Positions 1,670 to 12,968 of a DNA stretch of 18,051 bases are shown here, piece by piece. A program made the translations under genes and the position numbers. Positions within the stretch are counted from its first letter, which is position 1, and each line of letters opens with the position of its first letter. Source of the stretch: an uncultured Eubacteriales bacterium (GTDB lineage Bacteria > Bacillota > Clostridia > Peptostreptococcales > Anaerovoracaceae); assembly GCA_902765035.1 (NCBI GenBank), contig CACWYF010000023.1, forward strand, positions 1-18,051, given 5' to 3'. The notes under the pieces were generated by a model. That model saw only the letters and a program-made list of their open reading frames with translations. It was not told where the DNA came from and did no database searches.

Positions 1670-2848
1670 TTACACCCCCTCTTCCGTCAGAAAATACCAT
1701 ACCGAAGCTGCATGCATCACAGCCAGTTCAGTCACAACATCCTCCTCAGGGAGGAATCCGGGATTGTGAAGAGGCAGACTGCAGCCTGCTCCTATGTGAT
1801 AGAAGGAACCCGGTGCTTTGTCCAGAAAGCAGCCGAAATCCTCGCTTATCATGACCGGGTCTTCTATGATGTGCACCTTCTCCTCTCCGAAGATCCCGCA
1901 GGCAGCCCTGAATGCAAGGTCTGTCATGCTTTTATCATTTACAACGCCCGGATGACTGTGTATATAGTCTATGTCTGCTGCAGTTCCGGTCCTGTCTGCT
2001 ATAGCCTGCACGGTATTCCTGAACTCCTCTTCCATTCTGCGCCGTGTTTCAGGGCCGAGCGTGCGTATTATTCCCTCGAATACCGCTTCACCCGGCATTA
2101 TGTTGCCTGCCGTTCCTGACTGCATCCTTCCTACAGTCAGAATGCACTTATCAGAAGTTATCTTCGATGGCAGTTCAAGAAGCGCTGTTACCATTTCCGC
2201 TGCAGCTGCCAGAGCGTCAATGCCCTTCTCTCTTACTGCGCCGTGAGATGCCAGTCCGGTTACTTCAACCTTGAACATATCCGATGCAGCATAGAATATT
2301 CCGTAGCGTATACCAATATGGCCTGCCGGCAGATCGGGGCTGACATGCGCACCGAAGACAGCATCCACTCCATCCATGCAGCCTTCTCTGATCATTCTGT
2401 CAGCACCTCCGCGCCCCTCTTCATCAGGCTGCAGCAGGAATATTACATTCCCTTTCAGTTCGTTTCTGTGCTCTGCCAGTATTCTGGCAGCTCCGAGCAC
2501 TGCTGCTGTGTGAACATCATGGCCGCACGCATGCATCACACCTCTGACTTCCGATGCGAACTCTGCCCCTGTCATCTCGGTCAGCGGAAGAGCATCCATA
2601 TCTGCTCTGAGCGCAGCCGTCCTGACCGGCCCGTTCTCCGGGTCTCCGGCACCGCACTTCAGTTCTCCGACAACAGCCGTGTCAAGTATCCGTCTGGTCG
2701 CTATCCCGAGTCCGTTCAGGTATTTTTCTGCAAGCTCAGCCGTACAGTATTCATGATTTCCCATCTCAGGATGCCTGTGTATGGTCATCCTTAATCCCTT
2801 TATCTCCTCTGCGAATCTCTCCGCATCGCTTCTGATCATCTGTATCAT
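1670..2848 (-). CDS. M20-family amidohydrolase, probable N-acetyl-LL-diaminopimelate deacetylase
   Basis: This is an M20D metallo-amidohydrolase of 392 aa. It probably removes acetate from N-acetyl-LL-diaminopimelate to give LL-DAP. The start is the ATG at 2848, which overlaps the dapF stop in an ATGA and has CGGAG eight bases upstream. The longer reading to 2917 would lie inside dapF. Visible metal-site motifs are DMDALP at about 83-88, HACGHD at about 106-111, QPDEEG at about 141-146, H168 in GAHVSP and H361 near LHNPGF. M20D also includes hippurate and IAA-amino-acid hydrolases, and sequence alone does not settle the substrate. The operon with dapH, a patA-like aminotransferase and dapF makes the DAP role the best reading (a ykuR-like role in B. 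subtilis). Only five bases separate it from purF. Confidence 0.85.
   Translation of the reverse strand: MIQMIRSDAERFAEEIKGLRMTIHRHPEMGNHEYCTAELAEKYLNGLGIATRRILDTAVVGELKCGAGDPENGPVRTAALRADMDALPLTEMTGAEFASEVRGVMHACGHDVHTAAVLGAARILAEHRNELKGNVIFLLQPDEEGRGGADRMIREGCMDGVDAVFGAHVSPDLPAGHIGIRYGIFYAASDMFKVEVTGLASHGAVREKGIDALAAAAEMVTALLELPSKITSDKCILTVGRMQSGTAGNIMPGEAVFEGIIRTLGPETRRRMEEEFRNTVQAIADRTGTAADIDYIHSHPGVVNDKSMTDLAFRAACGIFGEEKVHIIEDPVMISEDFGCFLDKAPGSFYHIGAGCSLPLHNPGFLPEEDVVTELAVMHAASVWYFLTEEGV
1674..1680 (-). promoter_or_regulatory. Shine-Dalgarno site that decides the purF TTG start
   Basis: On the minus strand AGGGGGT lies nine bases before TTG at 1664-1662, and it sits within the last codons of the upstream deacetylase gene, whose stop is at 1672-1670. 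No other start codon occurs between this site and the conserved HEECGVLG block. The only other in-frame candidate is the ATG at 1700, which has no purine-rich leader. Confidence 0.6.
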
Positions 2849-3708
2849 AATAATTCTCCGGTGAATACGGTCACTGCCGGTCCTGTCATAATGCATCTGC
2901 CCGTGTCTATGTCGCACTCTATCTCAAGATCTCCGCCCCTGAGATGCACAAGCACTTTGCACGCCAGTTTTCCTGCAAAGCATCCGGCGGCCACTGCTGC
3001 TGTTGCTCCCGTGCCGCACGCATACGTCTCTCCCGATCCTCTTTCCCAGACCCGGAAGGAGATCTCCTCCGGGCTGATCATCTCTACGAACTCTGCATTG
3101 ACCCCGTCAGGGAATCTTCCTGAGCTTTCTATTTCAGGTCCGATGATCTCAAGCGGGATCCGGCTGAGCAGCGTGCAGTCCCCGCCTCCGCCGGAAGTAT
3201 CTTCATCAGTAATTCCGCTCAGAGCAGGATTATCATCAAGGAAGAATACCGCATGCGGATTGCCTGTACTGACTGCTGTAAAACAGAGATCAATTCCGCC
3301 GGCCGCAATGTTCTCAGACTCAGCAGCTACTTCAGCTATGCCCATGTCAACGGATGCAGCTGCGGCCTTGCCGTCTTTTATATCGAGCCTGATTTCTCTG
3401 AGGCCGGCTTTTGTATCTATCAGGACATCCTTTCTCTCCGGCGGGACCATCCCGTTGTCATATATATACTTGGCAACACATCTGATCCCGTTGCCGCACA
3501 TTTTCCCTTCGGATCCGTCACGGTTGAACATATGCATGAAAGCATCAGCCCTGTCTGACGGCTCTATGAGGATAAGCCCGTCGCTCCCTATGCCGTATCT
3601 TCTGTCCGAGAGCTTTACAGCCAGGTCTGAAGGGTCCTGCACGTTCTCTTCAAAACAGTTGACATATATATAGTCATTTCCGCATCCCTGCATTTTGGTA
3701 AACTTCAT
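2845..3708 (-). CDS. dapF: Diaminopimelate epimerase
   Basis: DapF interconverts LL- and meso-diaminopimelate, the last step before cell-wall crosslinking or lysine. It works without cofactor through two cysteines. The start at 3708 (287 aa, MKFTKMQGCGNDYIY) has GGGGAGCGTAAAGAA before it. An upstream in-frame ATG at 3786 would add 26 residues unlike the family. The catalytic pair is Cys71 in KMCGNGIRC and Cys231 in YACGTGATA, with the usual GIGSDG and STGNPHAV blocks. A glycine-rich stretch (about 171-178, SGGGGDC) replaces the usual short link before the IPLEIIGPEIE block. A 117 bp gap separates it from patA, the only loose joint in this operon. Its 3' end overlaps the deacetylase by 4 bp. 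Confidence 0.95.
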   Translation of the reverse strand: MKFTKMQGCGNDYIYVNCFEENVQDPSDLAVKLSDRRYGIGSDGLILIEPSDRADAFMHMFNRDGSEGKMCGNGIRCVAKYIYDNGMVPPERKDVLIDTKAGLREIRLDIKDGKAAAASVDMGIAEVAAESENIAAGGIDLCFTAVSTGNPHAVFFLDDNPALSGITDEDTSGGGGDCTLLSRIPLEIIGPEIESSGRFPDGVNAEFVEMISPEEISFRVWERGSGETYACGTGATAAVAAGCFAGKLACKVLVHLRGGDLEIECDIDTGRCIMTGPAVTVFTGELL

Positions 3709-3825
3709 TTCTTTACGCTCCCCGTTCCGGCTGCCTGTTGCCGTTTTCATAGATCTGCTGACACTATTGTTCCGGCTGTGTATCATTCAGCCTTTGCAGC
3801 ATCCTCTGTGTCCGCACTATTTTGC

Positions 3826-4974
3826 TCATTTTTCCCGGATTGTTATCAGGAAGCTCTCAAGACGGTCGAGTCCCTCCTTTAAATCATCCATGCTGCAGCA
3901 GTATGAGATCCTTATGTGATCATCTGAGCCGAACGCCGCACCCGGCGTGACAGCAACAGCTCCCTCCCGGACAAGTCTCTCAGCAAATTCAAACGAACCC
4001 ATGCCATATTTCCTGATCGAAGGGAAAACATAAAATGCGCCTTCCGGGGTCTCTGTCTCAAGGCCCATATCCCTTAGCCTGTCTGTCACATAGTCTCTCC
4101 GCCTTCTGTATTCTTCAGTCATATATGAAGTATCTGTATCCAGTGCAGTGATGCAGGCCTTCTGCATGATTGACGGAGTTGAGACAACATCGAACTGGTG
4201 CACCAGCTCGAGTCTCTCTTTTACGGATGCGTCAGCCATCAGGTAGCCCATCCTCCATCCTGTCATCGCGTAAGGCTTGGAGAAGCCCTGCACAGCAAGG
4301 ATCTGTTCCCTGATGTCGCAGTATTCCGCAAAACTGTGATACATGCTGCCGTAGTACAGTGACCTGTACACATCATCACATATGACGAAAACATCTCTTC
4401 CCTTTACAGCTTCATATACCGTTCTCAGACTCTCTTCGTCATATACGCAGCCGGTCGGATTGTTAGGAGAGTTGAGGATCACCGCCTTCGTTCTGCTGCT
4501 TATCAGGGGCTCAAGATCATCTTTTCTTATCTGAAACCCTGCTCCTGATGTATTCATCGGGACACATACTCCCCTGCAGAGGTTCACTATCTGCTCATAC
4601 AGAACAAATGCCGGCACCGGAATGATCACCTCATCACCCGGATCCAGTATTCCGAGAAGCGATACGAACAGTGCCTCAGTTGCGCCTGCAGTAACGATTA
4701 TCTCATCTGCACTGTACTCAAGGCCTTTTGTTTTCTCGAACGCTGAGATGCGCTCGCGCAGGATCCTGCTTCCGTTATTCTCTATATAATGTGTGTCACC
4801 TGCAGCGACTGATGCGCTGACTTCGCAGCTTATCACCTCAGGCGTATCAAAATCCGGCTCGCCGAGAGTAAGTCTTACACACCCGGGAACAGATGCAGCC
4901 AGCCTGGAGAACTCTCTTATTGCACTCCTCTTCAGACTGTAGACTGCCTGATTCATGTGTTCATGAACTGCCAT
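3826..4974 (-). CDS. patA: PLP-dependent aminotransferase, probable N-acetyl-LL-diaminopimelate aminotransferase
   Basis: This is a class I/II fold-type I aminotransferase of 382 aa. In this operon it most likely transfers the amino group from glutamate to N-acetyl-2-amino-6-oxopimelate. The start is the ATG at 4974 with GGTGGAGGTCAGA before it, 13 bp after the dapH stop. The longer reading to 5013 would run back into dapH. Visible marks are LGEPDFDTP at about 37-45, NSPNNPTG at about 168-175, the DDVY block, the PLP-binding Lys233 in GFSKPYAMTGWRMGY, and EGAFYVFP near the C terminus. Sequence alone would also fit an aspartate or aromatic aminotransferase. The dapH and dapF neighbours support the PatA role, and the symbol rests on that context. 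Confidence 0.85.
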   Translation of the reverse strand: MAVHEHMNQAVYSLKRSAIREFSRLAASVPGCVRLTLGEPDFDTPEVISCEVSASVAAGDTHYIENNGSRILRERISAFEKTKGLEYSADEIIVTAGATEALFVSLLGILDPGDEVIIPVPAFVLYEQIVNLCRGVCVPMNTSGAGFQIRKDDLEPLISSRTKAVILNSPNNPTGCVYDEESLRTVYEAVKGRDVFVICDDVYRSLYYGSMYHSFAEYCDIREQILAVQGFSKPYAMTGWRMGYLMADASVKERLELVHQFDVVSTPSIMQKACITALDTDTSYMTEEYRRRRDYVTDRLRDMGLETETPEGAFYVFPSIRKYGMGSFEFAERLVREGAVAVTPGAAFGSDDHIRISYCCSMDDLKEGLDRLESFLITIREK

Positions 4975-4987
4975 TCTGACCTCCACC

Positions 4988-5680
4988 CTACAGATTCCTA
5001 AGTCCCTGCTCAAGCGCCGTTTTCATCGATGTCTTATCATCCTTGGCCTTGATGATTCTGGCCGGGCATCCCGCAGCGACCATTCCCGGCGGAACATCCG
5101 CTGTCACTATTGCTCCTGCTGCCACTACAGCACCCTTTCCTATCCTTACGCCTTCTATCACGACAGCGTTTGCTCCTACGAGCACATCATCTTCTACGAC
5201 AACTGGGACTGCAGAAGCCGGTTCAACTACACCTGCGAGGACTGCTCCGGCGCCTATGTGGCAGTTTCTTCCTACCTCAGCTCTTCCTCCGATGACGGCC
5301 CCCATGTCTACCATCGAACCCTCGCCAATGACAGCACCTATATTGATGACTGCACCCATCATGATCACGGCATTATCGCCTATTTCTACCTGCTCTCTTA
5401 TTAAGGCTCCGGGTTCTATTCTCGCATGCAGGTTCTTGGTATCCAGCAGATGGAGCGCACTGTTGCGGCAGTCATTTTCTATTACGATGTCCTCGATCCT
5501 GTCGCTGTTTTCCCTCACTATCTCTTCAAGCTCATTCCAGTCGCCGAACACAATCCTGTCTCCTGCACCGAAAACCCTTGCACTGCCATAGTCCACCGGT
5601 GCCTTTTCCCTGACGTACATTCTTACAGGCGTCTTCTTCTCTGCATCCCTTATCAGCTGAATGATCTCCTGTGCATTCAT
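4988..5680 (-). CDS. dapH: Tetrahydrodipicolinate N-acetyltransferase
   Basis: DapH acetylates 2,3,4,5-tetrahydrodipicolinate with acetyl-CoA and so commits flux to the acetylase branch of DAP synthesis. The 230 aa protein has an N-terminal helical and mixed domain (about 1-85). After it comes a left-handed beta-helix of isoleucine/valine/glycine hexapeptides (about 90-205, for example [20 protein letters not shown] and [20 protein letters not shown]). The family block [14 protein letters not shown] and a short helical tail follow. The length matches DapH rather than the longer succinyl-type DapD. The ATG at 5680 has AAGGGGAAAGG upstream. It is the first gene of the left block. The 214 bp upstream contain the terminator of the preceding operon and no promoter that I can place with confidence. 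Confidence 0.93.
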
Positions 5681-5894: not shown

Positions 5895-7064
5895 TCAGTA
5901 TATGCGGAAAGCGAACTTCCCTGCTTTTTCTTCTATGTCTGCGACTGCAAGGATGCTCTTCGGGTCGTTAGCTGTCTCAAGCATTGCAAAGTCCGCAGGC
6001 AGTATGAATGACTTGTTGAAATTCAGCGCGCCGATGATCTGCTCTGCGATGATGTCCCCGCCGGAATAGCCCGATACGATCACGGCATACACCCTCTTGT
6101 CCGAGAAGTCATGTGACCGGAACAGTGAAGTAAGCCTGTTGACGAAGGCCGTCAGATTGGCGCTGAGTGCGTCATTGTAATTAGGGCATATGAGGACAAC
6201 AGCATCTGCCTCGAGAAGCGCCGGATACACCTGGTCCGTGATTATCCCTCCGTAGAAGCACGTTCCCTGCTCGCCGAAGTGCAGACATGCCTCATAGCTG
6301 CATCCGCGGCAGTCGTAGATCTGACCGTTCTGCAGGGATATCTCAGTTATCTCCGCACGGCTGTACAGATGCTTTTTCACCATGTCCCACAGGAGAAGTG
6401 TATTGGATGTCCTGCGTGTGCTGGCATGAAGCGCCAGAAGCTTTATCTTCCCGCTTACTTCCGGAAGGCCGAAGTCCAGGACCTTATCAACAAGCGAGCG
6501 GACCTGAGTGCAGTATATGTCTTCCGGCTCTCTGCCGGATATGGTACTGAGCACATGAAAGTTCCCGAGAGATCCTGTCGCCTCCACAAGCGGCTTTCCA
6601 GGGAAGGTGCATCCGCACATGTTTGCAGAGAATGCAAAACGCCTGGCGATCGCCTTGGTATAGAACTCTCCCCCTCCGTCGACGATTATCCCTCCGACTG
6701 ATCCCTCAAGACAGTCAGGGTGTCCGCGCAGGTGCTCAAGCAGGCGGTAGTACTCGATATTGACCCCCGCTTCCGACAGAGCCACGGCAAACAGTATCCT
6801 TTCAGACGAGATGTCCCTGTCCTCAAATTCACTGACATGGCTGTATATTACGACATCGATGCCGCGCTCTTTCAGTTCATCAAGATACGGCAGCAGCATG
6901 CCGTCGAGTCTTGACGCCCTGTCCTCTGAATCACATGCAGGCTTTATTACGATGAGCCTGCGGTTTTCTGCTGAATTAATATTGTCTCTGTTAATATTGT
7001 CTCTGCTGCAGGTCCCCTCACCTGATATCGCAGAGCCTGATGTATGAATCTCTGATCCTCTCAT
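5895..7064 (-). CDS. Two-part flavodoxin-like / NADPH-dependent FMN reductase family protein, start uncertain
   Basis: With the ATG at 7064 the protein is 389 aa. The C-terminal half (about 207-389) is a flavodoxin-like fold of the NADPH-dependent FMN reductase type. It has the phosphate-loop-like LHASTRRTSNT at about 212-222, CPNYNDALSANLTAFVNRL from about 293 and a SGYSGGD loop at about 331. Between them is a cysteine cluster C-x2-C-x4-C-x8-C at about 252-269, loosely like iron-sulfur flavoproteins. The N-terminal half (about 36-175) is also alpha/beta in pattern (RRLIVIKP, GSVGGIIVDGGGE, ATGSLGNFHVLS) and I do not recognise its function. The start is a problem. The 7064 ATG overlaps the upstream gene by 47 bp with only a weak GGA before it. 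The open frame extends to 7160, and no ATG, GTG or TTG occurs between the upstream stop and residue 56. Substrate unknown. Confidence 0.75.
   Translation of the reverse strand: MRGSEIHTSGSAISGEGTCSRDNINRDNINSAENRRLIVIKPACDSEDRASRLDGMLLPYLDELKERGIDVVIYSHVSEFEDRDISSERILFAVALSEAGVNIEYYRLLEHLRGHPDCLEGSVGGIIVDGGGEFYTKAIARRFAFSANMCGCTFPGKPLVEATGSLGNFHVLSTISGREPEDIYCTQVRSLVDKVLDFGLPEVSGKIKLLALHASTRRTSNTLLLWDMVKKHLYSRAEITEISLQNGQIYDCRGCSYEACLHFGEQGTCFYGGIITDQVYPALLEADAVVLICPNYNDALSANLTAFVNRLTSLFRSHDFSDKRVYAVIVSGYSGGDIIAEQIIGALNFNKSFILPADFAMLETANDPKSILAVADIEEKAGKFAFRIY
6976..7005 (-). repeat. Perfect 2 x 15 bp tandem repeat in the 5' part of the flavodoxin-like gene
   Basis: The unit TTAATATTGTCTCTG (plus strand) occurs twice without a gap, at 6976-6990 and 6991-7005. 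Read in the flavodoxin frame it encodes a doubled RDNIN-type pentapeptide just before the first conserved block. It lies 12 bases past the stop of the dehydrogenase-like gene. The unit keeps the frame, so the duplication is neutral to translation. Confidence 0.9.
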
Positions 7065-7974
7065 ATAATTTATCCGGAAGCTCCGGATCCTCGTAGTCCC
7101 AATTATCCCCGTTAAATCTGCTCCTGATCCCCAGGAAGGCTCCTCTGTTCTCATCCCCAAGATACAGTGAGCCGTAGTTCCACTCTCCCCTGAGTGTAAG
7201 TAGTATCGATATCGCCGCCGACGACATCGCCGGTGCGATATACGGCTTGAAGCCGAGCTCTCTCACCTCAAGATTGGCCCCCGTTGCCAGCTCTGTAAGT
7301 TCGCGTGACAGCTCATCATCATAGTTCTCAATGCTGTTGGCGATGACCAGGTCCTGCCCGTGCGGACCGAAAGCTCTGCCTTCTGAAAGATATGAGCTGA
7401 ATCTCTCGTCTCTTTCAGCGTAATATGCCGCCCGCGCGTTCATGACTCCGAGACCGTACCCCCGCAGCTGCCACGGCTTCAGGCCCGATGCATCGAGAAA
7501 TGCTACGCAGAGGTTGTCCACAGGATCAACTGCCGCACGCGCCAGTCCGGCATAGTGCTCTATGATTCCTCTGTTTGCATCCAGCTGCGCCATCCTGACA
7601 TCGAAGTCCGGATCTTTCTCTTTTCCGAGGTCCGGCACACCCTTGCTGGCGCAGAATATGAAGACGTCGGTATCGAAGAGTTCCTCTTCAGTCACTATCC
7701 TCACGGGAGGCAGATGTGGCTCACCGTCCGGAAATCTTATCTGGTTGATCTCGCGTACAAGCCTCTCGCAGTTCTCAGGCCTTATGTCACAGATGCCTAT
7801 CTCAGATATGACATCCGCACCCATCAGCCTCAGTCCTATGAGCATCGTGGTCCCTACATCACCGAGCGCCAGGATATTGACCCGGTGCTTTTCCCCCGGG
7901 CGTATGGGGTGTCCTGCCAGTGATACGGGTGCGTCCACCCCGATCTCATTTACCAGTTCTTTTATTCTGTGCAT
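7018..7974 (-). CDS. Lactate/malate dehydrogenase-like NAD-binding protein, specific function unknown
   Basis: The 318 aa protein follows the LDH/MDH plan. There is a Rossmann loop ALGDVGTT at about 36-43 with Asp63 ending the second strand, where an NAD-ribose ligand is expected. DVRMAQLDANRGII at about 125-138 resembles the helix with the substrate arginine and a conserved Asn. PVDNLCVAFLDASG at about 151-164 resembles the NPVD region. GPHGQD at about 203-208 carries the catalytic-type His205. The usual LDxxR block reads VMNAR (177-181), so the Asp that pairs with the histidine seems to be Met while the Arg stays. Activity on lactate or malate is therefore doubtful. The ATG has CAGGAG five bases upstream. 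It sits between the giant protein and the flavodoxin-like gene, and I expect a shared transcript. Confidence 0.75.
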   Translation of the reverse strand: MHRIKELVNEIGVDAPVSLAGHPIRPGEKHRVNILALGDVGTTMLIGLRLMGADVISEIGICDIRPENCERLVREINQIRFPDGEPHLPPVRIVTEEELFDTDVFIFCASKGVPDLGKEKDPDFDVRMAQLDANRGIIEHYAGLARAAVDPVDNLCVAFLDASGLKPWQLRGYGLGVMNARAAYYAERDERFSSYLSEGRAFGPHGQDLVIANSIENYDDELSRELTELATGANLEVRELGFKPYIAPAMSSAAISILLTLRGEWNYGSLYLGDENRGAFLGIRSRFNGDNWDYEDPELPDKLYERIRDSYIRLCDIR

Positions 7975-8144: not shown

Positions 8145-11100
8145 CTACTTATCCCGTGACAGGTGCAGCCTCTTCGCGCGCTTTATGTCGCTCTCTATAT
8201 ACACGCTCGGTGCCGCGTTCTCATCATACAGGAGCCCGTCTCCGTAATCCGGACGGCGCGGATTTGTGATGACAGCACCAAGCCTTCCGAGAGTCAGCTG
8301 CTTTTCAAACTCCGCCTGATATTCCTGCTCGATGACCTTCATTATGTCCCTCGCATTCTCAAGGCATGTCATCGAGTACCTGTACACCTTCTCGGAGTCC
8401 CTTCCGCCGACAAAGCTGTAGGATGTGTACGGCATTATGATATTGATCGATGCGTTCCTGTCTCCTGACTCAAAGCTGTCTCCCCCGATGAACGGATAGC
8501 AGTCTCTCTCGTTGAGCCACATGGTTATGACAGGGATGAAGTATGCCCCGTCCACAGCCCTGCGGCTGACAGCCATCTCGTCTCTTGCGTTGCCCGTCAG
8601 CAGGCCGACTATGACCTTCCTGACATTCACATCATTCTCTCTCAGGATAGGGTCTATCCTTTTCATCCTCTGGCCGGAGTGGAGAAGGTCGTCTATGAGG
8701 ATCACATCTCTGTTGAAAGATTTAAGCGTCCTGACCTGATCCTCAAGCTCTGCATAACCGCGGGACTCCCTTATCGTAAAGTCCCGGATCGACTCACTTA
8801 TGAACTTCTCTGTCCTGAGAGCCTTGGTGACAGTATTCGGTACGACGACATCAGAAAGAGCCTTTCCGAACGGCACCGCCATATAAGGGCCCCTCCTTTT
8901 TGCCGGGTCTGGCACTGACGGCACCATGTTCTCCTTCGCGGCCATCTCAATGATCTTGCTGTAGACAGCGCTGGTATTGAAGGAAAGTATCAGCTTGCCC
9001 GGATACAGCTCGCAGAATGTCTTAAGAAGGTTGTTGTGGGCATCATCCACTGCCTTCATGACCCTCGGATTCTTGTTCAGCGGTGCCTTGATCACCGTCT
9101 CGACATCGCGGAACAGCACCACTGGTGCAGTTATATCTACCGCATAAACAGGATTGTCATGATCTTCTGATATGTTGACAAAGCCCTGTCTTCTGAGGAC
9201 TTCCGTCACGTTCTGGCTGAGGCCTGCAGGGTCTGCCGGATGATATACGACATATCCGTAGTCCTTTGCAAGCATGTCAGTCAGTATCTCGGTGAGAAGT
9301 ATCTGCCCGAGGTTGGATATATCGCGGCTGCGTTCGAAGTAGAAGGCATTTATGATGCCTATCGAGCCGTTCGCGCTCCTTCTGATGCTGCGCGTGACAT
9401 CGGTATCTCCGAATTCAAAGAGAAGGTCTTTCCGGTCTATCCTCCGTCCGGATGCAAAAGCGCATACTCCGGTGCGTTTAGTTCCTGTCCTCTCGATATA
9501 TATCGTCCTGACGCGCGGACGCTCAAGAACAGTCATGAGAGAGTCAAAGTCATATCCCCTTCCTGTCAGTTCGTCCCTGAGGCTTCTTATCCTCCTGCAG
9601 TTACTGTGCTCATATCCCGAGATGTGTATATCTCTTGCCTGAAGCTCATGCTTATATGCCGGCTCTCTTATGTAGAAATTGTTCTCGTATATGTAGTTCT
9701 GTACGACCGGATCAATAAGAGATGTTATGTCTCTTCCGAGGTCGATGTTTTCTCTGATCCTTGTCGAACTTATATCTTCATAGAATTTTCCGAGCCTGAG
9801 GTTTATGACTTTGCCCCGGACCGGATATGCTTCATCCTCACCGCGGTCTGTCTGCCTTGCCTCACGCGCGAACACGATGTGATTGAAGGTGTGTATCGAG
9901 TTCTTCTGAGGCTTAGCCTTGTAGCTCGAAGCGTTTCTTACGACATCCGATCCGACTGCTATATACAGGTCCCTGTCTTCAAACAGGCTGCGCAGTATGC
10001 CGAGATCTTCAGGGTTGGCAATGTTTACAGGAACATCATCCGGGAATATGTACATGTCCGTCTCTGCTGCTATGGACATCGCCAGGATCTCCTTTCGCAG
10101 CATGTGCGGGAGGGTCTTCTTGGACCACGAGAATTCATCGATCGCAAGGTACACCTCATAGCCCATGTCGCGTATCGTGCAGGCTATGGCCTTGTGGCCG
10201 AGGCTGAACGGGTCGAAAGTGCCCGGGAAGAAAGCCGCTTTCTGCCTGCATTCAAGTCCGAACGGCCCCTCTTCAGCTATATATTCCGAGATGAATCTGT
10301 ATATACCCCTGAGAGCTGCTGCATTATTGCAGAACTCCATCGCGTCCTTCTCTGAATCCGTATCCGGGATGAGCGTAAGTATCCTCTTGCCTGTAAGCGC
10401 CAGTATCCTGCGCTTTTCATCATCTGATGCCGTGCCGCTCACGAAGACCCGCTCTGCAAGTGTCCGGAAAGCTTCCTGCGAGACGGCGTCCCTGTAGTGG
10501 GCAACGCCCTTCATAAGAAGACCGGAAAGACGTTTTACAAGTTCTTCACACCTTTCCTCTGTCCCTCTCCTGCGGTATTCGCTGAAGTGCTCAAGCATTA
10601 TCGAGACTGTCATGAGCGATGCCGAGGCCGTATTGATATTGCCTGAGCTTATATGGCTCTCGAGATTGCCTGTGACTTCGTCGATCTCCTTGTCCGGCAT
10701 CAGCAGGATCATCCTGCCGAGATACTCAGGTATGAGCCTTGCAAACTGATAGTCCTCTATATCCAGTCCGTTGTACAGTTCGACCATGATCTCATTGCAC
10801 TGATCCGCAGGCATCTTCCTTATGAGTTTAAGAAGCGCCTCCCCGGCCTCCCGTCTTACCGTGACCGTCTCGCTGACCTTTATGAGGTTCACAAAGTGTG
10901 CCGCGATATGCATCCTGACATTTCTGTCGGATGATCCCGCGATGTCAGTCATGTATCGTATATTGGCAGCCTTGCGAGTCCACGAAGTCTGGAATTTGAG
11001 ATCATCAAGGAACATCGCCGAGAGAGCTGCATCCCTTTCCTCAGCAGACTGCACGGCAGTCTCGCCGCCGTCATCGATCCCCATCAGCCTGAGTCTTGCC

Positions 11101-12968
11101 GCGCGGATGCTACCGTCCTCATCACCGCTGAACTTTTCCCTCACATCAAGGGCCAGGAGATCTGTGCTGTCTGAGTATTTTCCCGTAACATTGCATGCAT
11201 ATCCCGAGGCCTTTTCCCTGAAACTGTCAGTACACGTATCCTCATCGACCGCAAGGGCTGAGTTCAGAACGGCCATCGTCATCCGCTCGCTCCTGCCGGT
11301 ATCTTCAAACAGCTTCTCGAGCACTGCATAGTACCTCGGAAGGAACTGCTTTGCACAGCTTGTGAGAGCAGCACTTACGAAGAAGTCCATGCTCTGGATT
11401 ATCCAGTTCCTGTGCCTCTCGGTCAGCCTTGAAGACGGGCTCAGCATCCTGCCAAGGTATATCTCAAACATCTCGAGATTGGTCGTGGTCTCATCCAGCT
11501 TAGGTATGTCTTCAGGCAGCTCCTTTCTGTAGCTCTGTCTGAAGGTCGCTGTCATCTGCCCCATCTGGCGCGCCGACTGCTCCCTTACATCGCTCTCCCT
11601 GTTCATCAGCTGGTCGTAGAGGAATCTGAGAGTTAGGGCCTTCTGCTCTTCGGTCATGTATGTGGAATACTCACCGAGAATGGTTATATATGTACGGAGA
11701 TTCCTCCAGTCAGCCTCGCCGCGGGCATCCTCGATGAGGCGTGCAAAATCCGCTTTATTATTGAAATAGTGCATGAGGCGTATGTTGTGCCCCACGGATT
11801 TCATTTTGAGCTGTGTGATTATATCGTCGCCCTGGATGAGTGACATCTCCCTTCTTACGCGTACAGGCTTGTCCTTGCGGTATCCCATGCCTTCTGCAGG
11901 CAGAGCCGTAATGACTCCGTCCTCAAGGGCAAAATCCGAAGGCAGGTCAGTCACAGCGCCGAGCTCGATCATGTAGTCTTCAAAGTCTTTGAGCCGCGCA
12001 TATACCTTTTCATATCTGTGCTTCTTGGCATCGTCGACATTGTCAAGCTTGCTGAGGATGACATCAAAGGCCTGCTCAAGTGTATAGAAGTGTATTATCT
12101 CTTTGCCGTCTTCTCTCGTGCTCTTGACCCTGAAGTCAGCATAGATGAGAAGAAGCGACTCTGCCGAGAGATTCTCAAACTCAAGATCCCAGGTCGAATG
12201 GTTGGCTGCAATGTGAGCTATCTCAGGCATTCCGTTCTCTGTCATGCAGTAGTCTGTATAGTAGTAATGAAGGTACGGGACCCTTCTCTCCTCGCTCTTG
12301 CGGCAGCCGTATTTGCCTATGTCATGGCTTGCAGCAGCGGCAGATGCGAGTGCGACATCAACAGGGATGCCCGCATCGCGGAGCTGCCTTGCCATGTATG
12401 TCGCGACATAATGCACTCCGGAAATGTGTCCGAGGGTATTGAAGGGCGTGACCTCTGTTCCGAGGCGCATGAACTCATAAATGAAATTACTCCTTACCAG
12501 CCTGTGCATCCTTATATATTCAGATGCGAACCCCTCTGACTGCGCCTCGCTGTCTGATAGAAGAGTCATGTCCAGAGTCGGGTCGAACCTGCAGGCTTTG
12601 CGTTCATATGTGAAAACAGCCCTGAGGAGCGTAAGTGCCGTGATGCGGCCGGTCCTGAATTCTTCGGAATCATCCGGCAGTCCCAGATGCGGGAAAATGG
12701 TGCCGCGGACATGCATATAACAATGAAGAGCCCATCCCTCCTGAGGGATAAGGCTCATCTCTTCAAGGCATACTGCGCCCGCTTTAAGAATATTTCCGGC
12801 GCTTATGCGGCCGTTCTGATCTGAATAAGACAGGATCATATCCGCAAGATAACGGATGTCTGAAGACCTTTCCTGCACCCTGCTTCTGCTGATCCCGCAT
12901 GTGGAAAGATATGCTCTGTCCGTAAGAGCAGATATAATTTCTCTGTAAAGTTGTTCCCCTCTGTCCAT
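8145..12968 (-). CDS. 1607-residue multidomain protein: HD hydrolase, helical repeats, NadD-like adenylyltransferase, GNAT-like region, PRTase-like domain
   Basis: Domains in order. (1) HD phosphohydrolase, about 175-335, with candidate metal ligands H181, H215-D216 in SHDIGK, H252 and H257 in HIAANHS, and D278. (2) A long helical stretch, about 370-900, with HEAT-like pattern. (3) A nucleotidyltransferase of NadD type, about 908-1100: GTFDPFSLGHK (916-926), TLPHMLRKEILAMSIA, VGSDVV and ISSTRIRE (1067-1074). (4) A GNAT-like region, about 1155-1285, with LGQILLTEILTDMLAKDYGY and VLRRQGF; the acetyl-CoA loop is not clear. (5) A PRTase-like domain, about 1300-1500, with the PRPP-type loop DVILIDDLLHSGQRM (1421-1435). 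There is no signal peptide or membrane segment, so it is probably cytosolic. The ATG has AAGGGGG upstream and a good promoter about 30 bases away. The domains suggest pyridine nucleotide or other nucleotide metabolism. The substrates are unknown, and I know of no characterised protein with this order. Confidence 0.85.
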   Translation of the reverse strand: MDRGEQLYREIISALTDRAYLSTCGISRSRVQERSSDIRYLADMILSYSDQNGRISAGNILKAGAVCLEEMSLIPQEGWALHCYMHVRGTIFPHLGLPDDSEEFRTGRITALTLLRAVFTYERKACRFDPTLDMTLLSDSEAQSEGFASEYIRMHRLVRSNFIYEFMRLGTEVTPFNTLGHISGVHYVATYMARQLRDAGIPVDVALASAAAASHDIGKYGCRKSEERRVPYLHYYYTDYCMTENGMPEIAHIAANHSTWDLEFENLSAESLLLIYADFRVKSTREDGKEIIHFYTLEQAFDVILSKLDNVDDAKKHRYEKVYARLKDFEDYMIELGAVTDLPSDFALEDGVITALPAEGMGYRKDKPVRVRREMSLIQGDDIITQLKMKSVGHNIRLMHYFNNKADFARLIEDARGEADWRNLRTYITILGEYSTYMTEEQKALTLRFLYDQLMNRESDVREQSARQMGQMTATFRQSYRKELPEDIPKLDETTTNLEMFEIYLGRMLSPSSRLTERHRNWIIQSMDFFVSAALTSCAKQFLPRYYAVLEKLFEDTGRSERMTMAVLNSALAVDEDTCTDSFREKASGYACNVTGKYSDSTDLLALDVREKFSGDEDGSIRAARLRLMGIDDGGETAVQSAEERDAALSAMFLDDLKFQTSWTRKAANIRYMTDIAGSSDRNVRMHIAAHFVNLIKVSETVTVRREAGEALLKLIRKMPADQCNEIMVELYNGLDIEDYQFARLIPEYLGRMILLMPDKEIDEVTGNLESHISSGNINTASASLMTVSIMLEHFSEYRRRGTEERCEELVKRLSGLLMKGVAHYRDAVSQEAFRTLAERVFVSGTASDDEKRRILALTGKRILTLIPDTDSEKDAMEFCNNAAALRGIYRFISEYIAEEGPFGLECRQKAAFFPGTFDPFSLGHKAIACTIRDMGYEVYLAIDEFSWSKKTLPHMLRKEILAMSIAAETDMYIFPDDVPVNIANPEDLGILRSLFEDRDLYIAVGSDVVRNASSYKAKPQKNSIHTFNHIVFAREARQTDRGEDEAYPVRGKVINLRLGKFYEDISSTRIRENIDLGRDITSLIDPVVQNYIYENNFYIREPAYKHELQARDIHISGYEHSNCRRIRSLRDELTGRGYDFDSLMTVLERPRVRTIYIERTGTKRTGVCAFASGRRIDRKDLLFEFGDTDVTRSIRRSANGSIGIINAFYFERSRDISNLGQILLTEILTDMLAKDYGYVVYHPADPAGLSQNVTEVLRRQGFVNISEDHDNPVYAVDITAPVVLFRDVETVIKAPLNKNPRVMKAVDDAHNNLLKTFCELYPGKLILSFNTSAVYSKIIEMAAKENMVPSVPDPAKRRGPYMAVPFGKALSDVVVPNTVTKALRTEKFISESIRDFTIRESRGYAELEDQVRTLKSFNRDVILIDDLLHSGQRMKRIDPILRENDVNVRKVIVGLLTGNARDEMAVSRRAVDGAYFIPVITMWLNERDCYPFIGGDSFESGDRNASINIIMPYTSYSFVGGRDSEKVYRYSMTCLENARDIMKVIEQEYQAEFEKQLTLGRLGAVITNPRRPDYGDGLLYDENAAPSVYIESDIKRAKRLHLSRDK

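Follow-up and report, generated by a model that had tools for sequence, protein, structure and literature searches.

The 18,051-nucleotide stretch analysed here (the window; contig CACWYF010000023.1 of an uncultured Eubacteriales bacterium) contains a giant gene that heads a conserved three-gene unit, in which it is followed by a gene for a protein of the lactate dehydrogenase (LDH) fold and a gene for a flavoprotein of the flavin mononucleotide (FMN) reductase type. The giant protein combines an HD hydrolase-type domain, a HEAT-repeat scaffold, a NadD-type adenylyltransferase, a GNAT-like region and a phosphoribosyltransferase (PRTase)-like domain. Our leading explanation, held tentatively and with less than even confidence, is that it both assembles and proofreads, on its own, a dedicated X-ribosyl-adenine dinucleotide, distinct from ordinary nicotinamide adenine dinucleotide (NAD), which its redox partners would either use or help to supply. 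The genes of these two partners are the strongest functional clue and had gone unnoticed in the original prediction, which was made from the sequence of the window alone.

The evidence from sequence and structure model consists of the domains, their conservation, gene linkage, co-occurrence and a pattern of losses. The LDH-like gene adjoins the giant in 54 of 58 loci (57 fetched loci and the window), and the four misses (L063, L078, L087 and L089) end at most 268 bases after the giant. The flavoprotein gene then follows in 46 of the 58 loci by BLAST, with profiles adding L056 and L084. In a linkage set of 64 non-identical giants longer than 1000 amino acids (aa) with at least 1.5 kb of sequence downstream, near-copies included, the LDH-like gene was adjacent in 60 and the flavoprotein gene was also present in 58. 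At the genome level, the LDH-like gene was found at E 1e-15 in all 25 other giant-positive genomes detected by the HD profile, and the giant was found in all seven LDH-like-positive genomes from a draw of 398 phylum genomes (own genome excluded), with genome G115 belonging to both sets. The co-occurrence persists where the genes lie apart, at 5.4 kb in G175, at 5.6 kb in G078 and on different contigs in G730.

In G175 (L154:7246-12443), an ammonium transporter gene and three glutamate-synthase-type genes lie between the giant and the LDH-like gene, and open reading frames of similar size and order occupy this place in G078 (L155). A fourth conserved gene was considered and rejected, the next commonest families reaching 8 of 58 loci and none occurring more than five times directly beside the trio. 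For riboswitches, no Rfam match was found in the window, and seven matches in 11 other loci were all located outside the unit, more than 1 kb away.

Four of the 64 giants (L116, L117, L121 and L129) have no partner genes despite having room for them, and the genome of each has one other copy. L116, L121 and L129 have lost adenylyltransferase residues, and all four unlinked copies retain the HD residues. Adenylyltransferase loss was observed in three of four unlinked and in none of 60 linked copies (Fisher 1e-4, post hoc and uncorrected for relatedness). In genome G058 two shortened copies divide the functions of the giant between them. L115, of 1079 aa and with both partner genes downstream, has no HD domain but intact adenylyltransferase residues and an intact PRTase loop; L116, of 1230 aa and standing alone, combines an intact HD site with a ruined adenylyltransferase. 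The loss pattern together with the G058 split indicates that the adenylyltransferase is tied to the redox partners and that HD activity can exist separately. The same data bear on a hydrolase-first explanation, in which the main function would be nucleotide sanitation or control by the HD domain, with the PRTase-like domain as a sensor of phosphoribosyl pyrophosphate (PRPP) and the adenylyltransferase as a losable accessory. It agrees with the retention of HD residues in the three unlinked copies that lost the adenylyltransferase, with the HD domain being the most conserved of all (mean 0.71, next the NadD-type domain with 0.68) and with the non-canonical PRTase phosphate loop described below, but not with the checked adenylyltransferase residues never being lost in 60 linked copies, nor with the retention of an HD-less copy beside both partner genes in G058, and we regard it as rather unlikely.

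Residue conservation was assessed in 46 non-redundant full-length homologues with frames of 1,554-1,727 aa (stop to stop), to which all counts out of 46 refer. In the adenylyltransferase domain, GTFDPFSLGHK occupies residues 916-926 and ISSTRIRE residues 1066-1073. Pfam CTP_transf_like matches residues 913-1074 of the whole giant (39.2 bits, cut-off 21), and the NadD model TIGR00482 aligns end to end at 914-1099, scoring 45.1 bits for the whole protein and 50.9 bits for the domain piece, both below the cut-off of 112.45 (own-genome NadD, 149.7). All 23 homologous adenylyltransferase pieces match TIGR00482 at E <= 0.001. The giant has the NadD fold and the core residues of GxFDPxxxxH and SSxxxR, with G916, F918, D919, P920, H925, S1067, S1068 and R1072 invariant (46/46). 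A further motif, DEFSWSK, is near-invariant (E945 in 45 of 46, its other residues in all). The "full NadD-type signature" of the original prediction holds for the motifs and core residues, but the protein stays below the NadD cut-off and its acceptor side differs. The TYDT stretch of the own-genome NadD, which we take to be the acceptor stretch, is replaced by VNIANPxD in the giants, so the base need not be nicotinate. Y1016 is invariant (46/46), and the own-genome NadD apparently has Trp at this position in an alignment read by eye.

In the HD domain, SHDIGK corresponds to residues 214-219 and HIAANHS to residues 252-258. Pfam HD matches residues 179-261 of the whole giant just under its cut-off (21 versus 22 bits) and the HD piece alone over it (25 bits). 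Of 23 homologous pieces, 21 match the profile at E <= 0.1. The H...HD...D metal motif of the HD superfamily is present, and H181, H215, D216, H234, H257 and D309 are invariant (46/46). A review of HD proteins, in the sections accessible to us, gives H...HD...H...H...D as the dinuclear type (PMC8177086), and these six residues of the giant correspond to it, with a spacing unlike that of YqeK. The best NCBIfam match of the HD piece is the HD part of NF045665, which is also matched by 23 of 23 homologues at E <= 0.1. In a search of the own genome at E 0.001 with the YqeK model TIGR00488, a separate yqeK (contig C176) was the sole match and the giant was not matched.

The call of a type I PRTase-like domain is based on profiles, PDB sequence matches and the model. 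Its loop VILIDDLLHSGQRM spans residues 1422-1435. Pfam Pribosyltran (PF00156; cut-off 26.3 bits) matches residues 1405-1466 of the whole giant with 13.4 bits and the window's own PRTase piece with 16.8 bits, both below cut-off, and 12 of 23 homologous pieces at E <= 1 (best E 6.2e-5). At a threshold of E 10 the PDB sequence search gave nine matches (E 0.13-1.8), each a PRTase or PRPP synthetase. A strand-loop-helix is found in the AlphaFold model of this domain. No PRTase occurred among the 50 matches given in each of the two lists of the fold search, which carries no weight against the call. D1426 (46/46) and D1427 (45/46) form the acidic pair of a PRPP loop, and R1434 is invariant (46/46). 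The PRPP-type loop proposed originally is supported by the acidic pair but not by the phosphate loop.

In a wider alignment of 93 rows (the query and 92 other aligned rows longer than 1000 aa, including own-genome copies, near-copies and fragments), the six HD residues, the ten adenylyltransferase residues and the four PRTase-loop residues were each intact in 88 rows. The departures were fragments, second copies and single changes (Gln or Glu at D309; Arg at S1067, Asn at D1427 and Ser at G1432, two rows each). The three predicted centres (HD, adenylyltransferase and PRTase-like) are under strong constraint as judged from these alignments. Chance matches of the motifs and freely varying catalytic residues, either of which had been named as what would overturn the original prediction, are ruled out by residue conservation and by profile matches among homologues. 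The residues singled out there, H215/D216 and the D1426-D1427 pair, proved conserved as given above, and variation within GTFDP..GH was confined to T917 (33 Thr of 46) and G924 (19 Gly, 26 Ser).

We infer every chemical step that follows, along with the nature of X and the direction of flow between the giant and its partners. One chain holds ribose-phosphate-transfer-like, adenosine monophosphate (AMP)-transfer and nucleotide-hydrolase-like sites, which is why it is read as making and clearing a dinucleotide. The PRTase-like domain would make or bind X-ribose-5-phosphate, and the NadD-type domain would add AMP from adenosine triphosphate (ATP) to give an X-ribosyl-adenine dinucleotide. A wrong or surplus dinucleotide would be hydrolysed by the HD domain, and the HEAT scaffold would hold the catalytic sites close to one another. 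The LDH-fold protein and the flavoprotein may use the dinucleotide in a redox reaction, or may make and reduce its X part. The idea of building and breaking a dinucleotide on one scaffold, already put forward in the original prediction, is consistent with the domains and their conservation, but a nicotinate base and PRTase catalysis are not supported.

That the product should differ from NAD follows from the own genome, in which nadD, yqeK and rsfS lie side by side, each over its NCBIfam cut-off, answering the earlier question of whether separate nadD and yqeK genes exist. The giant is therefore probably not an enzyme of housekeeping NAD synthesis, and a housekeeping NadD/YqeK role was rejected as the main explanation. 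The own genome also has coaD and a glycerol-3-phosphate cytidylyltransferase gene (L002:1414-1878, another CTP_transf_like protein, 205 versus 165.4 bits), each scoring above its NCBIfam cut-off. The PRTases for nicotinate, nicotinamide and quinolinate belong to type II, and this also argues against NAD as the product, as does the lack of the TYDT acceptor stretch. Alternative or backup NAD synthesis, in which nicotinate adenine dinucleotide (NaAD) or NAD would be formed from base, PRPP and ATP and proofread, as in the Mycoplasma NadD-YqeK fusion with more parts, is improbable in view of the complete own-genome set, the type I-like PRTase domain, the replacement of TYDT by NIANPxD, the giant's score of 45.1 bits, which falls far short of the 112.45 required for NadD, and only 36.5 of 315 bits on NF005519, a model taken to be of the NadD-YqeK type from its matches to both own-genome proteins.

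The family profile of the second gene finds PDB lactate dehydrogenases (best E 1.5e-8), and Ldh_1_N matches 21 of 22 aligned members at E <= 0.1 (best 2e-9), while the window copy has no Pfam match, including none to Ldh_1_N. The GDVG dinucleotide-binding loop is present in 47 of 47 members and D63 in 44 of 47, at what we take to be the position of the Asp that contacts the adenosine ribose in NAD enzymes. R127 (47/47), R181 (44/45) and H205 (43/43) fall at the positions of Arg109, Arg171 and His195 of LDH, in which Arg109 and Arg171 are presumably the two substrate-site arginines and Asp168-His195 the catalytic pair. In stop-to-stop frames, at least 100 residues precede the GDVG loop in 22 of 47 LDH-like members, and the window copy is without such a region.

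For the flavoprotein, the PF03358 match reaches 68.6 bits (cut-off 24). Four Cys, at positions 219, 222, 227 and 236 of the first row, are invariant in 20 of 20 aligned members and are candidate ligands of an Fe-S cluster. The listed TTG start overlaps the second gene, and from the alignment the true start is probably nearer 7064. A profile search of PDB at E 0.001 found no relative of the flavoprotein family.

The dinucleotide proposal has four weak points, namely an altered PRTase phosphate loop, a missing HD arginine, an altered LDH dyad and a patchy presence, and several individual loci also count against it. The canonical phosphate loop of type I PRTases is T-[TS]-G-x-T, which is not present in the giants; H-K-G-Y-R is found instead in most (residues 1430-1434: H in 37, K in 38, G in 45, Y in 37 and R in 46 of 46), so the domain may only bind. 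The accessible sections of the HD review place an Arg three residues before the first metal His in all phosphohydrolases (PMC8177086), and none of the 46 giants has Arg at position 178 (Thr in 40, Ser in 3 and Ala, Asn and Val in one each). M178 stands in the place of the catalytic Asp in all 45 covering rows of the LDH-fold protein, which may for this reason not be a normal dehydrogenase. Of 35 genomes of the same genus, many of which are incomplete, only 8 gave strong matches to the giant; other families of the order gave strong matches as well. Among the loci, L067 has another gene, RlmN-like by reading of the sequence, in place of the flavoprotein gene, and L069 has no flavoprotein gene in the 414 bases remaining after the LDH-like gene. 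To these are added the separation of the giant from the LDH-like gene in G175, G078 and G730, the unlinked copy L117, which keeps all checked residues, the change of S1067 (first Ser of ISST) to Arg in L017 and L019, which are LDH-linked but outside the 64, and single changes in other LDH-linked copies (Asn for D1427 in L052 and L132; at D309, Gln in L128 and Glu in L015).

The features of the unit are listed in Table 1. The giant gene has an ATG start and no internal stop, which bears out the single uninterrupted 1607-codon gene with the coordinates originally given; its strand, absent from that description, is minus. All motifs quoted there (SHDIGK, HIAANHS, GTFDPFSLGHK, ISSTRIRE and the PRTase-like loop) occur at the protein positions indicated. 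Of the original domain calls, HD, NadD-type, repeats and PRTase-like are supported by profiles and models, and the repeat scaffold of about 500 residues is of the HEAT type by fold. In the fold search of the N-terminal half the listed matches were filled by HEAT repeats, and the HD call rests there on profiles and residues. The GNAT-like call, based on fold, is the weakest. GCN5 and NatD (E 5e-4 to 2e-3, with values of 6.7e-4 for GCN5 and 5.3e-4 for NatD) are among the 50 Foldseek matches listed, for which the aligned part of the query is not given. Pfam GNAT matched one of 23 homologous pieces, at E 0.085, which is essentially negative, and an acetyl-CoA loop was not recognised by eye in this domain.

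Table 1. Position and basis of the features of the three-gene unit in the window.
Feature	Residues or length	Position	Strand	Basis and remarks
Giant gene	1607 aa	8145..12968	(-)	Uninterrupted open reading frame; heads the three-gene unit
N-terminal all-helical region	1-125	12594..12968	(-)	AlphaFold model; poor mean conservation (0.35)
HD metal-hydrolase-type domain	145-340	11949..12536	(-)	Pfam PF01966; predicted metal residues H181, H215, D216, H234, H257, D309
HEAT-repeat scaffold	about 381-900	10269..11828	(-)	Fold search of models
NadD-type adenylyltransferase	909-1104	9657..10244	(-)	Profiles, fold; GTFDPFSLGHK, DEFSWSK, ISSTRIR
GNAT-like domain	1113-1290	9099..9632	(-)	Foldseek rows, strands in model; weak mean conservation (0.41)
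Type I PRTase-like domain	1300-1530	8379..9071	(-)	PF00156 in homologues, PDB sequence matches, model; loop VILIDDLLHSGQR (consensus VILVDDLLHKGYR)
C-terminal helical region	1531-1607	8148..8378	(-)	Model; conservation 0.59
Second gene, lactate/malate-dehydrogenase-fold protein	318 aa	7018..7974	(-)	Profile matches to LDHs
Third gene, flavoprotein		5895..7160	(-)	PF03358; own N-terminal region, FMN_red domain, four conserved Cys

Further downstream on the same strand (1670-5680 of the window) lie genes for an M20 peptidase, a diaminopimelate epimerase, an aminotransferase and a DapH-type acyltransferase, which likely serve lysine/diaminopimelate synthesis. Their families are each present in between 3 and 8 of the 58 loci.

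By sequence, the giants form a coherent protein family in Clostridia and Atribacterota. In related genomes, 41 of 60 were matched at E 0.001, many of them by weak matches to ordinary NadD-like frames. When one genome per species was scanned, 57 loci were obtained, whose best segments are 34 to 99% identical; they come from Clostridia and Atribacterota and, in one case, from a bacterium with no named phylum. The HD-domain profile found the giant in 26 of 393 class genomes (own genome included). Frame lengths were 1,573 to 1,687 aa for 27 of its 28 matches, and the remaining match fell in a 244-aa frame close to the end of a contig. In a quick tree of 50 proteins with midpoint root, the seven Atribacterota rows formed one group sitting among Bacillota, which suggests transfer, in a tree whose root is not known and which has several long branches. 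An assembly or fusion artefact was rejected, since the same architecture recurs in many families and in two phyla. The carriers include several named isolates (Anaerovorax odorimutans, Peptoclostridium litorale, Fervidicella metallireducens and Acetoanaerobium noterae), so the giant is experimentally testable. One locus (L143) comes from PLSDB record NZ_CP154629.1, by its label plasmid pTPELB2 of Acetoanaerobium noterae; a plasmid location was rejected, this single record of 2.63 Mb with 4 annotated features looking like a mislabelled chromosome.

The distribution also bears on two explanations outside cofactor metabolism. The three genes might make a secreted or stress-related nucleoside-like metabolite, of the sort proposed as the product of Ter clusters; the presence in only 26 of 393 class genomes agrees with this, as do a C-C_Bond_Lyase gene (PF15617) adjoining the giant in G730 and the giant's occurrence in 8 of 33 PF15617-matching class genomes (two draws of 393, not matched row by row). 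That adjacency is a single case, however, the giant occurs in 3 of 14 genomes with strong lyase matches (E < 1e-90), and no neighbouring gene family recurs in more than five places just after the trio, which leaves this explanation hardly likely. The PF15617 gene of G730 (L157:6797-7798) and its neighbours form a possible Ter (tellurite-type) cluster by length and order only, and with one adjacency and weak genome overlap a Ter link was rejected. A role in phage defence or conflict, exerted through NAD or nucleotides, is very improbable: a giant multidomain protein with HEAT repeats and a patchy distribution would be in keeping with it, but five proteins of the unit gave no PADLOC match at E 0.01, no relatives were found in phage records and none were confirmed in viral contigs, and conservation is strong. 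A phage or viral origin was likewise rejected, with no phage-record match and none of 43 viral-contig stretches that fitted a pattern confirmed.

Among known systems, the mycoplasma NadD-YqeK fusion (JCVISYN3A_0380) is the direct precedent for the proposed roles of the giant, being like it in joining a NadD-type adenylyltransferase and an HD hydrolase in one chain, with the hydrolase as a proposed proofreader; in the accessible text, the YqeK HD domain is described as hydrolysing mis-made NaAD analogues, no scaffold, GNAT or PRTase part is named, and the NadD is the cell's NAD enzyme, whereas the giant's genome has a separate nadD-yqeK (PMC9426524). Relative to NadD (TIGR00482), the giant is below cut-off, is without TYDT, has Y1016 and carries the added DEFSWSK. 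The DVU_1551 family NTP transferase (NF045665) is, by its name and the match position, likewise a nucleotidyltransferase with an HD domain, but the HD piece of the giant reaches 30.1 of 315 bits and the transferase part of NF045665 is unmatched. The second gene shares the profile match, GDVG and the Arg/Arg/His set with the LDH and malate dehydrogenase superfamily and differs from it in M178. The third gene shares PF03358 and a four-Cys set with iron-sulfur flavoproteins of the FMN_red fold, unlike which it has the Cys spacing C-x2-C-x4-C-x8-C and its own N-terminal region. In the open-access literature, searched by titles and abstract openings and with subscription papers mostly outside the search, no description of the giant family or of the three-gene unit was found.

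The three-gene unit, with its co-occurrence and its pattern of losses, is the chief new finding, and the dinucleotide idea is partly supported. At the least, the giant is a fusion of the NadD plus HD type with added parts; it is possibly also the first sign of a new dinucleotide cofactor. The full claim, that the three genes constitute a redox cofactor pathway new to science in Clostridia and Atribacterota, in which a single polypeptide makes and proofreads a NAD analogue with a non-nicotinate base, for use by a dedicated enzyme of the LDH fold and by a flavoprotein, we consider doubtful. The close linkage of the three genes, together with conserved nucleotide-building and nucleotide-breaking sites and two partners of redox type, points to a nucleotide that may be absent from current pathway maps. 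If this nucleotide is a cofactor, it would be an addition to the short list of dinucleotide cofactors; if the unit is a repair or control system, it would extend the idea of adenylyltransferases that carry their own proofreading hydrolase.

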